Source: Nitrospirota bacterium (GTDB lineage: Bacteria > Nitrospirota > Thermodesulfovibrionia > Thermodesulfovibrionales > Magnetobacteriaceae). Taken from it: a stretch of 64,000 bases of DNA. Within the stretch, counting starts at the first letter, position 1. Every line of letters begins with the position of its first letter. The notes beneath the pieces were generated by a model. That model saw only the letters and a list, made by a program, of their open reading frames with translations. It was not told the DNA's origin and did no database searches. The stretch is taken from assembly GCA_015233895.1 (NCBI GenBank), contig JADFXG010000002.1, positions 248,001-312,000 of the forward strand. The letters are read 5' to 3'. Shown here one piece after another: positions 5,611 to 32,976 of the stretch. A program made the translations under genes and the position numbers.

Positions 5611-8099
5611 TGTATCTGTTTGCTCCGTTTATAATCGGGGTATTGTTTTTTTATTCATATCTGTATTTTCCTTATTTAACTGCGTTGGCCATTGGCAGCT
5701 CTGCGCTGTTTTTTCTATTTAGCTTGAAAGAGAAAATATCTGTTTTTCTACTAATATTTTTTGTGGCAGCAGCCGGATTTTTCTATAGCGCTCTTAGATA
5801 CGAACCGGAAAGCTCTGTGCCTTTCTCCAATCCGGTTGAAATCAGCGAGGCCACGGGAGTGTTCACATCAAGACCAGTGGTGATAAAAACAACATCTTCA
5901 CTTTCCGGTAAGGAGACGACTTTTATCCGGCAGGATTTCACAATTAATTCCATGAAGTCATATCGTGTGTTGCCATGTAAACACATCAAACAATACATCG
6001 GACAGCAGAAAATAATGCCCCACTTTGAACCTCTGCCGGTAACGGTTTTTTTCTACGATAACCAAACCATGGTTAATGCCGGAGTTGAGGCCGTAGTGGA
6101 TATTAAGATTAACTATGACAAGAGACTTTTCAATCCCGGCTCATACGCATTTCCTTACAAACCCGTTGCCACAATACAAAAAATCTATTCACTAAAAGAG
6201 TCTGACTCACTTGTCTGGACATTTCCGAAACTGAGAAAGAAACTCTCCGATGCAATAGAGAGGAAATTTAAGGGCGATGCCGCAGACCTCGTTAAAGCGC
6301 TGACTATTGGGGATACATCGTCAATCTCAGATCATGTAAATGAGATATTCAGACGCACCGGACTTACTCACCTTCTAAGTGTTTCAGGCAGCCACTTTGC
6401 AATGCTTACACTTGCAGCTTTTCTGGGTATAAGGTTTTTACTTAACCTGCTGCCCTTTAGAATGATTGTTAAAATCACCACATACCTGAGTTTAATTCAG
6501 CTGTCAGCGCTGATAGCCATTCCCTTTATAGCTTCATATTTTTTTATATCCGAGCTGACGATTCCTGCTTACAGATCATTTGTCACAATCGGAATCTATA
6601 TGGCTGCCTTGCTTTTGGGCAGAAAGGGTATATGGTGGAACAGCCTCCTGTTTGCCGCATTTGTGATAGAGCTAACCGATCCGGCTTCAATATTCAATGT
6701 GTCTTTTCTTCTTTCATTTAATGCCGTGATGTTTATAGGGCTTGCAAATGACAGGGTATTGAACAACATCATACAACCTGAAGACGGTGAAAAGACTGTT
6801 AAAAAAAAGCCTGACACATCTAAGGTTGGCCTTAAAAATCACATTTACGATAAACTGAAAACGGGACTCCAATACTTGTATGTTAACCTGGTGATAACAT
6901 TAGCTATAATAGCCGGAACTCTGCCTATAACAATATCATACTTTTACAACATCTCGCTCATATCGGTAGTTGCAAACTCAGTAGTTGTGCCAGTGGTCTG
7001 TGTGTTAGCAATGCCTTTGATTGCAGCATCAGTGTTTACATTTCTTTTAACCGGATATATGCCGTTTGTTTCAGTAATTTCAGAAATACTGCGCTTTTCG
7101 ATAAAACTAATGGAGTTTTTTTCAGGGTTTTCGTTTGCAGCAACAGGCATAAGTGCGTTTCCACCACTATTTGTGATTGTACTCTACATTAATGTTTTGT
7201 ACTTTTTTAAAAACAAAAAAAGAGCACTTCTATGTTTGATCTTAACGGTTTCCAGTATGGTGGCTTACAGTATTTATCAAAATCATAGTAACCTAAGAGT
7301 CACATTTCTTGATGTTGGTCAGAGTGATTCAATGGTGATAGAGACGCAGTCGGGAAAAATCATTGTCGTTGATACCGGGAAAACGGGACGGGAGCTTGAG
7401 AGCTTTTTACGCTATCGTGGTGCCAATACAATAGAGGCCGTGTTTCTCACCCACGGTGACAGCGACCATGTGGGCGGATTTGTACCCATTTCCAATAAGT
7501 TTGAAATCAAAGCGATATTTGACAATGGCGCTATAAATTATAGCGCATCAATTTTAAAACGCATGGGAAACAAAATTGTTCATCTGACAAAGGGCGATTC
7601 AATCAACATTGACGGTGCTGAAATAAAGGTGTTCCATCCGTTTTTGAATTATTCATCTGATAAGGGACGCCTTGTAAACAACACATCACTTGTTTTTCAA
7701 CTAAAGGGACATAACCGGACATTTCTATTTACCGGAGATATTGAGCAGGAGGGTGAGTGGGCTATGGATAGCCTTGGGGATTACCTTAAAAGCGATGTGT
7801 TAAAGGTGGCGCATCACGGGAGCGCTACATCATCAGATTTTAGTTTTTTGTCACACGTGTCACCAAAAATTTCGGTCATAAGTGTTGGCAAATGCAATTC
7901 ATACGGCCATCCATCCGAGGATGTGATACAAAGGCTTAACAACTCACTCATCTTAAGAACCGACACAGAGGGAGCAGTTAAGATTACCGAAAGTGACGAT
8001 GGCATAAAACTGGAAACCTATGCACAAACGAAACTCAAAAAAGCATTTGATTTACAAAGCGAGATTGAAAACATAAAAAAGCTTTACAGGATGTGGTAA
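5610..8099 (+). CDS. comEC: ComEC/Rec2-family DNA uptake channel
   Basis: An 829-residue polytopic membrane protein of the ComEC/Rec2 family, which carries single-stranded DNA across the inner membrane in natural transformation. Order: short N-terminal membrane segments and a soluble DUF4131-like part (about 1-190); the competence domain with the TGLTHLLSVSGSHF signature near residue 250 and many membrane helices (about 225-540); and a C-terminal metallo-beta-lactamase-like domain (about 555-800) with LDVGQSDSMVIE and the metal motif THGDSDHVGG, then VAHHGS. The length is normal and the domains are intact. It starts one base inside the glmM stop codon (TGATG). No other competence genes are visible here. 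Confidence 0.92.
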   Translation: MYLFAPFIIGVLFFYSYLYFPYLTALAIGSSALFFLFSLKEKISVFLLIFFVAAAGFFYSALRYEPESSVPFSNPVEISEATGVFTSRPVVIKTTSSLSGKETTFIRQDFTINSMKSYRVLPCKHIKQYIGQQKIMPHFEPLPVTVFFYDNQTMVNAGVEAVVDIKINYDKRLFNPGSYAFPYKPVATIQKIYSLKESDSLVWTFPKLRKKLSDAIERKFKGDAADLVKALTIGDTSSISDHVNEIFRRTGLTHLLSVSGSHFAMLTLAAFLGIRFLLNLLPFRMIVKITTYLSLIQLSALIAIPFIASYFFISELTIPAYRSFVTIGIYMAALLLGRKGIWWNSLLFAAFVIELTDPASIFNVSFLLSFNAVMFIGLANDRVLNNIIQPEDGEKTVKKKPDTSKVGLKNHIYDKLKTGLQYLYVNLVITLAIIAGTLPITISYFYNISLISVVANSVVVPVVCVLAMPLIAASVFTFLLTGYMPFVSVISEILRFSIKLMEFFSGFSFAATGISAFPPLFVIVLYINVLYFFKNKKRALLCLILTVSSMVAYSIYQNHSNLRVTFLDVGQSDSMVIETQSGKIIVVDTGKTGRELESFLRYRGANTIEAVFLTHGDSDHVGGFVPISNKFEIKAIFDNGAINYSASILKRMGNKIVHLTKGDSINIDGAEIKVFHPFLNYSSDKGRLVNNTSLVFQLKGHNRTFLFTGDIEQEGEWAMDSLGDYLKSDVLKVAHHGSATSSDFSFLSHVSPKISVISVGKCNSYGHPSEDVIQRLNNSLILRTDTEGAVKITESDDGIKLETYAQTKLKKAFDLQSEIENIKKLYRMW

Positions 8100-28922: not shown

Positions 28923-29018
28923 AACTTATCCACCTCCAAAATTTTTAGCTCATATTCTAACTCTTGTCAGTCATATAAAGCAAGAACGTAAAAATAAAAA
29001 ATACGTTAGCGCTATTTT

Positions 29019-31166
29019 TTACGATAGCTTCTGCGGCTTTAAATCGTATGCCTTTATTCTTTTAACAACATCTTTTCCTATCTCCCGTATTTCTACCGCT
29101 GTTGTCACATCCTCACCGAGATACATTCTGAGGCCGCAAATCAGCGGTTCATACAAATTGGCATGGGGCGACTCCGTAATCATTTCAAGTGCCTCCTTTG
29201 CACATCCCACAGCAGCAAGCCCTGTTGCTAACTCTATTGTGTCATCAATTTTTTTCTCGACACGGTCATTATTTTCAATCCATTTTTTGGCTGGCACCAA
29301 AGCCTCTTTCCCTCTGTTTAATTTGCAAAGAATACATGCCAGTGTATGCTGTGATCCCGTATCGTTAGAATCAATTGTGACAGCTTCGTTTATGTATGCT
29401 AATGCCTTAACAATTAAGATACTGTTGTTTGACTTATAGAAATCCCAGGCAATTCCATTTAGTAGTTCTGCATTATCGGGCAACTCTTTAGTTGAATCTT
29501 CAGCAAATTTAACTGCATCGTCTGCTCTATTGGTTTTTAATAGTAAATTGAGCAGCACATTCTTAAATAAAATCTCTTCAGGCTTTATTTCAATAGCTTT
29601 CAGATAAGCTTTTTCAGCCACCTCATATTGTTTAAAAGCTTCCATAATTGAACCATATAAAAGCCATAAATATAGTAAATTAGGACCTTTTGTAAGTAAT
29701 TCCTCAAATCCATTTCTAATGTTTTTTATATCATCATCGGTATAATTACCTTCTTTCAACTTTTTATCAGCTTCATCTATCAAACTCAGCGCGGTATCAA
29801 ATGGGTGTTCAAATGAAGATGTAGTTTCAACCAATTGCTTTAAAGAAGCCGTCATGTTAGGATGTTTAAAGAAATATTTGGGTGTATTTTCAATCATCTT
29901 TTTTCTCATACCCTCTGGTAATACTTTTAAAATAGCCTCGTAGGCACTAAAATGGTCGTCACAATATTCTAAATCTTTTTGACAGGCCTCTGATGCAATA
30001 TTACGGACTATTTTTAGAAGGTCCTCAGGATAATAAAAGCTGACCATAAAATCTACTACTGCTTTAATACGGCTTGAGGAATCCCCATGTTTACGCATTA
30101 GAAAATATATGTTATACATACGTTCCGCCACATAATATAGCTTAGTTTTTTCCCTTATTTTTGTAATCACAGCGCCGCGCTCGGCAAGTCTGTTAAGCAG
30201 GGCGCTTGTCTTATTTACGTCAAGCCGAGCCGCATCCGCTATTTTTCTTGCCGGTGATTCGTTCCAAAGGTCAAGCATCGCCAGATATACCTTCCGCTCA
30301 ACAGGCGCAAGCGCATCCAGATGGCTCTTAAAATATTCAGTGTGGTCATCAACAAGACGGATGAGATCCGTCATAAGCTGCCGAAAAGACATTTTACCGG
30401 CAAATGAGGATATTATCGTAAGAAGCCGCGGGCTCCCTCCAGTAAGTATCTGAATCGGCCTTATCCGGTCATCTTTGGGTTCTTCTCCTGTGATGTTTAG
30501 CCATATTTCGCGGCACTCATCGTCACTGAGAGGGCGTAGCTCATGGATTTTAAAAAGCTCAAACATCGCTTTGTCATGATTTTCAATTTCATCAAAACGC
30601 CGGGTTGCTGAGGCTATCATCATAATGCGTGGCTCATTTAATAAGGTGTGCCGGAGCGCCCAACCGTCACTGTCGTTGCACTGTTCCCCAAGCAGCATGT
30701 TAAGATTTTCAACAACCAGCATTATGCGCTTACCCTCAGTATCGGCAAGATCCAAAATCTGAGCCAATGTCCGCATTTGCAGCCGTTTGTCATCCTTTTC
30801 TTTTTTTAACTCATCATACGTGCGCTGCCAATTATCGTCTTTTAGCTGAATAGCCAACCGGTGCACCGCCTCAAGCCAAAACTCGCCAATTGATGTTACC
30901 TCATAGCTTTCCTCAGAAAACACCAACGGATACCAGAGCTTTGAAAGCTCCGGGTCTTTTCGTATCTCAGCCGCAACTCTTAGCAAAAGGGTCGTCTTGC
31001 CGCTTCCCCTTTGCCCCACAACAAGAACATGCTGGTTGGAATCAGCCGTGTTTTCTCTGACTATGTTAAGCAATATTTTGAAATCAACATTCCGTGCTAC
31101 AAAACTCTGAATAAGTTCCTCATCGGTAAGAAACGCTGGGTTATATTTCATATATTGTCTTGACAT
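29019..31166 (-). CDS. P-loop ATPase with winged-helix and TPR C-terminus
   Basis: A 715-residue protein. Residues 1-250 are an AAA-type (archaeal-ATPase/STAND-like) domain: Walker A GQRGSGKTT (51-59), Walker B RIMLVVENLNML (147-158), sensor-like IASATRRFDEI and LTGGSPRLLTI. Then a winged-helix-like section (ESPARKIADAARLDVNKTSA), a helical part, and from about residue 470 TPR-like repeats (YLWLLYGSIMEAFKQYEVAE; AYLKAIEIKPEEILFKNVLL). It starts one base after the upstream ATPase stop, so both are made together. The role is unknown. The layout resembles signal-transducing or anti-phage STAND NTPases, but there is no recognised effector domain. Confidence 0.75.
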   Translation of the reverse strand: MSRQYMKYNPAFLTDEELIQSFVARNVDFKILLNIVRENTADSNQHVLVVGQRGSGKTTLLLRVAAEIRKDPELSKLWYPLVFSEESYEVTSIGEFWLEAVHRLAIQLKDDNWQRTYDELKKEKDDKRLQMRTLAQILDLADTEGKRIMLVVENLNMLLGEQCNDSDGWALRHTLLNEPRIMMIASATRRFDEIENHDKAMFELFKIHELRPLSDDECREIWLNITGEEPKDDRIRPIQILTGGSPRLLTIISSFAGKMSFRQLMTDLIRLVDDHTEYFKSHLDALAPVERKVYLAMLDLWNESPARKIADAARLDVNKTSALLNRLAERGAVITKIREKTKLYYVAERMYNIYFLMRKHGDSSSRIKAVVDFMVSFYYPEDLLKIVRNIASEACQKDLEYCDDHFSAYEAILKVLPEGMRKKMIENTPKYFFKHPNMTASLKQLVETTSSFEHPFDTALSLIDEADKKLKEGNYTDDDIKNIRNGFEELLTKGPNLLYLWLLYGSIMEAFKQYEVAEKAYLKAIEIKPEEILFKNVLLNLLLKTNRADDAVKFAEDSTKELPDNAELLNGIAWDFYKSNNSILIVKALAYINEAVTIDSNDTGSQHTLACILCKLNRGKEALVPAKKWIENNDRVEKKIDDTIELATGLAAVGCAKEALEMITESPHANLYEPLICGLRMYLGEDVTTAVEIREIGKDVVKRIKAYDLKPQKLS

Positions 31167-31167
31167 C

Positions 31168-32430
31168 TTAACCCTCTCTTTTTAGAATTGGCTGATAGAA
31201 CGGATATTTTTTCTTGTACCATTCACGCATTATCTTAGAGATAAAAACATACCCGTCATTTGACAATCTAAAATATCCATCATGCAGGAATACTGCTATT
31301 ATTTGTTGCAGAACGTCTTGAATACTCATTCCTTCAAAGCGGCTTGTATCGTGTTCGTGCTTTTTCTGAAATGCAGCAAGCAGCTCATTATTCAGAGTTC
31401 CGCTTATTGCCGTCTCTGCCAGCATCTCTATCGCTAACGAAAGCATATCGGGCCCAAGTACCATTTTTAACCTCTCCTCATAATGAATTAATTCTGAGTA
31501 CCCCCTGGTTCCAAGCATATCCTCTTTATATACGGTATCTATATCTTGAATTTCCACATCCACGTTCTCTGTTCTCTCACAACGTTCATGGATATAAGCA
31601 AAAAACATCTGCACGTGGTGTGGAATACAACAGCCGAGGCGTTCTACAATCGCTCTTTCAGCAGAGTCTTTATAAATAACGCCATATTGGCTGGCTAGTG
31701 CACTGAGGCAGCCAATAGCCGCATTGTCATCCCATGGTTTTAGTTCAAAGCGATAAAAATTATTCAAGGTTGCACTAAGCTTAGCTTGATTCAGAATTGG
31801 CTCAAGTCCGATGCTTCCTGAAATCACGATTCTAATTGTTCCTTGATACTCAATGCTTTTTTTTCTAAGCCACGACATAAATTCATTTACATTATTCCTT
31901 CTTTCAGGAGTTACCACAAAATCCCCGCCTTTGAGCATATTACTAATCATAATAGGCACCTCATCCATCAGTAAAACTACAGGTTTATCAGCAGACTTAA
32001 GAATTTTAAACAGACGGTCTCCTTTTTGAGACCAATTACCTTGAGTTAAACCATCACGCAGCGACACTTCTTGTCCAAGCAGTTTAACACTGTTTATAAC
32101 ACCTGTAATTTTGCTTACGACATTTAAAAATATCTCTTCAACCTTATCCCATATATTTTTATGAGGTCTAGTAGCCATACTCATTTCAAAAATGGCATCG
32201 GCAGCATCTTTTGCACCTTGCAAATCAATAAAAAGAAGTGAATATTTATCTTTTAGACGAAGTGCCATCTCTTTCATAAGACTTGTTTTGCCAATACGTC
32301 TCTGGGCGACAATCAGCATATGTGCGCCCTCTTGCAGTTTCGTTTCAAACAACTCTGCTTCCTTCTCACGATCCCAGAAGCGATCACCGGTAACAAAATT
32401 ACCACTTGCCTGTATTAGCTTCCTCTCCAA
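31168..32430 (-). CDS. Archaeal-ATPase-like P-loop ATPase
   Basis: About 420 residues with a P-loop NTPase domain at the N-terminus: TGDRFWDREKEAELFE is the usual lead-in of AAA_16/ATPase_2 proteins, then Walker A AQRRIGKTSLM (42-52), Walker B VVLLMDEVPIM near 150 and SGSIGLEPIL as sensor region. The C-terminal half looks like a winged-helix (ISKIMREWYKKKYPF). The frame opens at TTG 32445, but GGGAGG stands seven bases before TTG 32430, which I take as the start. It is the first of a two-ATPase unit, with a promoter and a 15-nt repeat leader upstream. Function is unknown. Confidence 0.75.
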   Translation of the reverse strand: MERKLIQASGNFVTGDRFWDREKEAELFETKLQEGAHMLIVAQRRIGKTSLMKEMALRLKDKYSLLFIDLQGAKDAADAIFEMSMATRPHKNIWDKVEEIFLNVVSKITGVINSVKLLGQEVSLRDGLTQGNWSQKGDRLFKILKSADKPVVLLMDEVPIMISNMLKGGDFVVTPERRNNVNEFMSWLRKKSIEYQGTIRIVISGSIGLEPILNQAKLSATLNNFYRFELKPWDDNAAIGCLSALASQYGVIYKDSAERAIVERLGCCIPHHVQMFFAYIHERCERTENVDVEIQDIDTVYKEDMLGTRGYSELIHYEERLKMVLGPDMLSLAIEMLAETAISGTLNNELLAAFQKKHEHDTSRFEGMSIQDVLQQIIAVFLHDGYFRLSNDGYVFISKIMREWYKKKYPFYQPILKREG

Positions 32431-32467
32431 GCTCAAACCTCCCAAACGTTAATATAGCAACAATTCC

Positions 32468-32527
32468 GATGCCAGCGTCTTTGTTGCCATCATACACGTT
32501 GCCAATTATTTTATTGCCAACATATCT
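32468..32527 (-). repeat. Four 15-nt-spaced direct repeats in the ATPase leader
   Basis: On the plus strand GATGCCA, GTTGCCA, GTTGCCA and ATTGCCA begin at 32468, 32483, 32498 and 32513, exactly 15 bases apart; between them the sequence varies. On the minus strand they read TGGCAAC-like and lie between the promoter and the ribosome site, so they would be in the 5' leader. Confidence 0.65.
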
Positions 32528-32533
32528 GTTTTA

Positions 32534-32562
32534 AGAGTATCATTTATAAAAAAACTTGTCAA
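32534..32562 (-). promoter_or_regulatory. Probable sigma-70 promoter for the ATPase pair
   Basis: On the minus strand TTGACA (32562-32557), 17-base spacer, TACTCT (32539-32534). The -35 is perfect and the -10 weak, which suggests a regulated promoter; the four repeats follow directly downstream. Confidence 0.5.
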
Positions 32563-32627
32563 GAGGTTTTTTTTAATTTTTTAATTTGAACATCTGTTTA
32601 TACCGAGTTGCACTCAGAAAAAAATTT

Positions 32628-32703
32628 AACCACTGATGGACACAGATACACACAGATAAATTAAATAATCATAATCTGTGTTCATTCGTGTTTATCTGTG
32701 GTT
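32628..32703. repeat. Imperfect 30-bp inverted repeat (CACAGAT family)
   Basis: AACCACTGATGGACACAGAT and the next ten bases (32628-32657) pair imperfectly with 32674-32703, ending ATCTGTGGTT. It resembles the CACAGAT-containing inverted repeat at 17704-17760. Probably a dispersed non-coding repeat; no gene lies between 32563 and 32976. Confidence 0.6.
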
Positions 32704-32895
32704 TATTCGTTTTTGTTAATCTACTTTTTTGACGGCTAATTGGTATTAGTGGGCGGAGCTCGTCTCTCCTCAAGGGGAATCCCCTATAATACTTTTTAAG
32801 CGGCAGAACGCCGATTAAAAAAATCTTTCATCTGGGCAGCCACAGGGGGCAGCCCCTACACATAATGATAATCGCTGATAGTAAACCGAGGAGTC

Positions 32896-32957
32896 AAGGG
32901 GAAATCATTTCCCCTTGCAGGTAGGGGTTTAAGGGGAAGGACGGCGTCCTTCCCCTT
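32896..32957. repeat. Two adjacent perfect palindromes sharing an AAGGGGAA core
   Basis: AAGGGGAAAT-c-ATTTCCCCTT (32896-32916) and AAGGGGAAGGAC-ggc-GTCCTTCCCCTT (32931-32957). The second, with 12-bp arms, lies 20 bases after the stop of the acyltransferase gene and may end its transcript or protect it, although no T-run follows. Confidence 0.7.
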
Positions 32958-32976
32958 ACTACTTTCTCTCCCTTAT

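Follow-up and report, generated by a model that had tools for sequence, protein, structure and literature searches.

What are the short, evenly spaced repeats in front of a two-ATPase operon in a Nitrospirota bacterium of the family Magnetobacteriaceae, and what might read them? In the stretch of 64,000 nucleotides that was analyzed (the window), the motif RWTGCCA occurs on the plus strand at 32468, 32483, 32498, and 32513, exactly 15 bp apart, which confirms the four copies at 15-base steps reported in a sequence-only reading of this DNA. With 49 copies in the window (46.2 expected), the motif shows no enrichment of its own, so the signal is the fixed spacing. A whole-window scan for four-unit repeats (7 columns, steps of 10–40) returned only two features with scores of at least 19 out of 21, the array and a plain 12-nt tandem repeat near 1304–1400. 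The tandem repeat, with units of the type ATCCCTC.., is the strongest four-unit repeat of the window. The only further genome copy of three TGGCA motifs at 15-bp steps was found at locus L011, in a different setting, and was taken as chance.

Read on the minus (coding) strand, the units are GTTGGCAAT (O1, 32513..32521), ATTGGCAAC (O2, 32498..32506), GATGGCAAC (O3, 32483..32491), and GCTGGCATC (O4, 32468..32476), again in exact 15-bp steps, and they are 9-bp imperfect palindromes of the GTTGGCAAC kind. Degenerate units flank them in the same 15-bp register: a zeroth, TCTTAAAAC (O0, 32536–32528), which retains the right half only and overlaps the -10 element, and a fifth, GTTGCTATA (O5, 32461–32453), which retains the left half only. 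The sequence-only reading had placed the array between a promoter and the ATPase operon, and this placement holds. Upstream on the minus strand are a -35 hexamer, TTGACA (32557..32562), and, after a spacer of 17, a weak -10 element, TACTCT (32534..32539), in which three of six bases match TATAAT; downstream follow a ribosome-binding site, GGGAGG (32438..32443), and, 7 nt further on, the TTG start codon of gene 1 at 32430. The TTGACA/TACTCT pair is absent from the promoter scanner's list for the window. With this predicted promoter, all full units are downstream of the presumed transcript start. Two other inverted repeats were observed nearby. One, at 32618–32713 with CACAGAT..ACACAGAT arms, lies just upstream of the promoter; its sequence CACAGATNNACACAGAT has 16 copies in the genome (reversed control, 0) and by its look it is a dispersed, MITE-like repeat family. 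The other, a strong inverted repeat at 32930–32958 on the plus strand, was flagged as terminator-like.

Both genes of the operon are on the minus strand. Gene 1 (31168..32430) encodes an ATPase of about 420 aa resembling PF01637, and its TTG start at 32430 agrees with the ATG of the orthologue at locus L002. Its match to ATPase_2 (32.3 bits) is just below the Pfam cut-off of 33.2, and 9 of 15 members of the gene 1 family have a match at E 0.01. The family profile also matched the AAA+ domain of the archaeal ATPases 2fna (E 7.5e-10) and 2qen (E 2.1e-06), mainly over the N-terminal half; to our knowledge no operator array has been described for them. Gene 2 (29019..31166) begins 1 bp after the end of gene 1 and encodes a 715-aa AAA+ protein, assigned by profile matches as AAA_16/ORC-CDC6-like with a TPR tail. 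AAA_16 and ORC-CDC6-like profiles matched above cut-off and a TrmB-like winged helix (residues ~288–346) below it; the ORC-CDC6-like match, to PF24389, has 28.8 bits (cut-off 27) and covers residues 7–62 only. No strong PADLOC match to a known defence system was obtained for the window proteins, the best being mad8 (E 5.4e-06) over residues 43–138 of gene 2.

Gene 1 is absent in three congeners. In the congener G003, yajC and an acyltransferase gene adjoin, separated by 47 bp, and the corresponding segment of the window (29009..32972) measures 3964 bp (3.96 kb); the operon is thus an insertion relative to G003.

The sequence-only reading had proposed looking for the same array upstream of orthologues, and there it was found. 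A scan of genome contigs with gene 1 gave two loci, L002, in a planctomycete, which holds the nearest orthologue found, and L003, where the match is weak (29% over 65 residues). At L002 the orthologues share 53% (gene 1) and 49% (gene 2) identity with those of the window, and three units, GTTGGAAAC, GTTGGCAAC, and GTTGGCAAT, follow TTGACA/TACACT in 15-bp steps. The TACACT is at the place matching TACTCT, an equivalent of O0 (ACTTACAAC) is present at the same step, and the first unit is 40 bp from the start of TTGACA, vs. 41 bp in the window. The array is present in a different phylum, at the corresponding position.

The search was widened to 60 relatives, with a match in six genomes (the window's own included), to 395 genomes of the phylum, where three queries with differing cut-offs gave 2, 15, and 5 genomes with a match, and to a plasmid collection, with five matching records in each search. 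Protein scans of viral contigs gave no relative, and phages gave no match. In total, 18 promoters were readable, L002 included; L027, L028, L037, L055, and L038 were left out with unreadable N-termini, and further Moraxella plasmids were also unused. Most loci carry two adjacent ATPase genes, the exceptions being L021 (gene 2 shortened), L022 (gene 1 alone), L029 (contig end), and L040 (gene 1 in pieces). At L040, L030, and L039 (G306:C114) gene 1 is broken into three matching pieces and has an internal stop, yet the promoter ladder is intact.

A maximum-likelihood tree of gene 1 (15 rows; L029 and L040 left out) resolved three clades, B (support 100/100), C (100/100), and A including the Methylomonas plasmid row (97/95), and the joins between clades were weak. 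The period of each promoter was scored from three consecutive 8-bp windows within 160 nt upstream, at steps of 12–20, and compared with 1000 dinucleotide shuffles. The best step was 15 in all three promoters of clade B, 16 in six of the seven of clade A (the exception, L014, having 12), and 17 in three of the four of clade C (the exception, L035, having 18, with 17 one point behind). The number of shuffles reaching the score was 8 for the window, 0 for L002, and 110 for L012; 206 for L014, 4 for L013, 0 for L015, 12 for L025, 0 for L026, 14 for L029, and 0 for L040; 59 for L016, 51 for L017, 18 for L035, and 606 for L036; and 0 for L019, 875 for L020, 276 for L021, and 484 for L022. Considered one by one, then, 6 of the 18 promoters (L012, L014, L021, L036, L020, L022) had scores that more than 10% of shuffles reached, and for L016 and L017 the share was 5–6%. 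Among control upstream regions, 1 of 130 scored at least 14.

Scores were also summed per clade over steps of 10–30 and compared with 400 shuffles (three promoters for B, seven for A, four for C; the four plasmid loci were left out). Clade B peaked at 15 (42 vs. a shuffle mean of 29.3, sd 1.8), clade A at 16 (97 vs. 67.3, sd 2.7), and clade C at 17 (50 vs. 39.2, sd 2.0). In all three clades alike the maximum was reached by none of the 400 shuffles, which ignore kinship, that is, any promoter ancestry shared by clade members; the ladders of clades A and C had been spotted by eye before period testing. In the Moraxella plasmid locus L020, three ACTATAnnnnTATAGT-like palindromes about 27 bp apart were seen by eye before gene 1 (upstream of 3826); they were missed by the period scan because its steps ran from 12 to 20.

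The step follows the ATPase clade and not the host, since all three clades occur, each with its own step, in a single bacterial family (f1), the one to which the window belongs. Clade B is found in Planctomycetota as well, and clade A in other families and on a gammaproteobacterial plasmid. With one mismatch allowed, the clade A pattern was detected in 8 of 395 genomes, in six of them at the promoter of this operon (reversed control, 2 of 395). As the step tracks the clade and the clade A pattern is mostly at the operon, the simplest reading is that whatever reads the array travels with it. Two occurrences of the pattern without the ATPase were set aside: L045, inside a coding frame, and L050, the one match of the pattern scan in viral contigs, inside ORFs. 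At L046 (~1500–1526) an intergenic GTTATACAACAAAATCGTTGTATAAC matches the clade A pattern with no ATPase within the surrounding 3 kb; it could be a hairpin or an orphan site.

Alignment of the units (units and anchors picked by eye; L012 and the plasmid loci left out) gave GTTGgCAAC plus 6 bp for clade B (7 units), GTTGTATAAC plus 6 bp for clade A (22 units, 16-bp steps), and AACGTT plus 11 bp for clade C (13 units, 17-bp steps). The units are palindromic in all three, with best-axis scores of.64,.67, and.59 for B, A, and C and next-best scores of.40,.42, and.37. Sites of this kind, repeated, palindromic, and in fixed register at a promoter, are what an autoregulatory tandem-operator array would have, and they are kept with the operon across species, with the same step at L002 and other steps in clades A and C. 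A TTGACA precedes the array at L002 and in all seven clade A promoters. In six of these seven the first unit starts exactly 19 bp after the start of TTGACA (36 in L014), so that it contains the predicted -10 element. In clade C, the units of L035 and L036 are upstream of or across TTGACA; the promoter is less clear in L016 and L017. At L015 (~7828–7885, clade A) the four units were seen by eye to form one long inverted repeat with 23-nt arms, and the nearby gene 2 is seemingly interrupted by a transposase-like ORF (5696–6388).

The helix twists by 34.3 degrees per bp, and steps of 15, 16, and 17 bp correspond to turns of about 154, 189, and 223 degrees. The earlier remark that the step does not make up a whole number of helical turns is correct; it had been taken as a hint of RNA binding or of a coding relic, but is no sign of RNA, as about 1.5 turns per step (15–17 bp) suits dimers on alternate faces of the DNA.

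We infer that the array is probably a ladder of dimeric DNA operators by which the mobile two-ATPase operon regulates itself. Each unit, a 9-bp imperfect palindrome with GTTG-g-CAAC half-sites and a 6-bp linker, would be the dock of one dimer. Dimers of an operon product, most likely that of gene 2, would occupy successive palindromes and wrap the start region. The steps put neighbours some 150–225 degrees round the helix, so several dimers could wrap this region and block RNA polymerase, and the expected outcome is repression of the operon rather than activation. Induction by a trigger would end the repression through a change in the nucleotide state of the ATPase or in the C-terminal (sensor) tail, which in gene 2 is usually a TPR or another C-terminal extension.

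The sequence-only reading had suggested an RNA-binding array as one possibility. An array acting in RNA, with units in the 5′ UTR serving as protein-binding sites or forming inter-unit hairpins that control translation of gene 1, agrees with the position of the full units after the presumed +1 in the window and L002, and with the folding of the window leader, which is better than in any of 200 shuffles (z -2.68); O1 and O2 can pair lengthwise apart from the centre, and one outer pair is compensating. The L002 leader, however, has a z of only -0.82, with 37 of 200 shuffles as good, and among the five leaders folded those of the window, L040, and L036 were better than most shuffles and those of L002 and L026 were not. 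Complementary pairs among off-consensus cells amount to 11 of 27 between adjacent units and 15 of 42 within units; there is no covariation signal, and the counts favour neither the DNA nor the RNA reading. What tells against RNA is the placement in relatives, where units are outside the transcript as predicted: unit 1 covers the -10 element in six of seven clade A promoters, and the arrays of L035 and L036 are upstream of or across TTGACA. An RNA array does not fit these loci and we think it quite unlikely, a role in clade B alone being the form in which it could still apply. The same reading had offered the relic of a coding repeat, and chance would be a related explanation. The 15-nt step does agree with the gene 1 reading frame both in the window and at L002 (codons LA[TI]..), but relatives have steps of 16 and 17, which are not divisible by 3 and break the frame, and the coding relic was rejected for this reason; position and palindromy are conserved, and the joint test gave 0 of 400. 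A coding relic or chance is scarcely credible, save in the case that the clade B array had an origin of its own.

The operators could also be read by a regulator of the host, for example of the GntR/FadR or MarR type, and not by a product of the operon. Regulators of these types bind sites of the TTG..CAA type, the GTTG/CAAC half-sites resemble generic winged-helix sites, and a WYL-domain gene lies immediately upstream at the Segatella plasmid locus. A host protein is hard to reconcile with a step that tracks the ATPase clade both between phyla and inside a single bacterial family, or with a clade A pattern found mostly at this operon (six of the eight genomes with a match), and we consider this explanation unlikely. 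Repeats of a replication origin (iterons or ORB) serving an Orc1/Cdc6-like gene 2 on an integrated element would be in keeping with the insertion relative to G003 and with the profile matches of gene 2, which are ORC-CDC6-like for five of the 11 members and TIGR02928 for three. Against this are the small number of short units (just 3–5), their promoter setting, and the genes listed beside the operon in the window, which are housekeeping and include none for replication; an origin appears very improbable.

An ATPase of the operon itself is a reasonable candidate for the binder, and such binding had been suggested earlier as something to look for. The likeliest binder would be gene 2, which encodes an AAA+ protein and whose winged helix is basic in clades A and B. 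HTH_24 and TrmB each matched 6 of 11 gene 2 members, and the net charge of the winged-helix stretch is +5 to +12 in 9 of 11 rows and neutral or acidic in the two clade C rows (0 and -3); in the C-terminal stretch of gene 1 the charge ranges from -8 to +1 (15 rows). At 298 aa, the gene 2 of the Segatella plasmid (L019) is the shortest and stops right behind its winged helix; a clear ladder with 16-bp steps is present in its promoter, the score being reached by none of 1000 shuffles. On the Methylomonas plasmid (L021) gene 2 is reduced to an 85-aa remnant and the ladder is irregular (276 of 1000 shuffles). The profile matches, the charge, and these two loci favour gene 2 without proving it; the winged helices of STAND proteins are often structural. 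Structure predictions from two-row alignments (mean pLDDT 46.7 and 63.7) were of too poor quality at the winged helices to help with the binder.

Literature searches among open-licence papers listed none with a title or opening lines of the abstract that mention such arrays at this gene pair. Several known systems share parts of the proposed arrangement. The controller protein of restriction-modification systems, a small HTH protein, binds two C-box operators (PMC4824078) that are likewise near-palindromic and located in the promoter of a self-regulating, horizontally spreading operon; the ladder, likened to them by description, differs in having two to five units at fixed steps of 15–17 bp and no small HTH gene noticed beside the operon. 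ParA of type Ia (PMC8465637) combines a P-loop ATPase with a winged HTH and represses its own promoter, binding cooperatively to repeated sites with centres 33–34 bp apart, near two ladder steps (30–34 bp). Its sites, in contrast, are hexamers in inverted repeats with wide spacers, in partition genes, and the fold is that of ParA; no ParA family is among the Pfam matches listed for the window proteins, and ParA serves only as an analogue. AbiEi (PMC3985639) is a winged-helix product of a two-gene operon that binds repeats in its own promoter, but the sites described are two inverted ones of 11–23 bp, and the system is a toxin-antitoxin pair without an AAA+ domain. IniR, a mycobacterial signal-transduction ATPase that has been compared with SSO1545 (PMC5760070), combines DNA binding and a sensor with an archaeal-ATPase type of AAA+ domain; unlike the protein proposed here, it is described as having a separate LuxR-like C-terminal domain and as activating another operon, iniBAC.

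Tentatively, the operon may belong to an undescribed family of mobile signalling modules with two ATPases. In these, a winged-helix STAND/ORC-like AAA+ protein with an exchangeable sensor tail would be the gated repressor of its own operon, and the operator step (15, 16, or 17 bp) would have been reset as the protein family split. If this is true, the family would offer a natural series for the co-evolution of a cooperative repressor with its DNA register. The three clades already lend themselves to comparing operators whose steps differ by one base pair. The array predicts that an operon product binds DNA, where it binds, and that it likely does so cooperatively, which gives a handle on a scattered and uncharacterised pair of ATPases. 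Should such modules have a part in defence or in sensing stress, the ladder could serve as a readout for finding their trigger.
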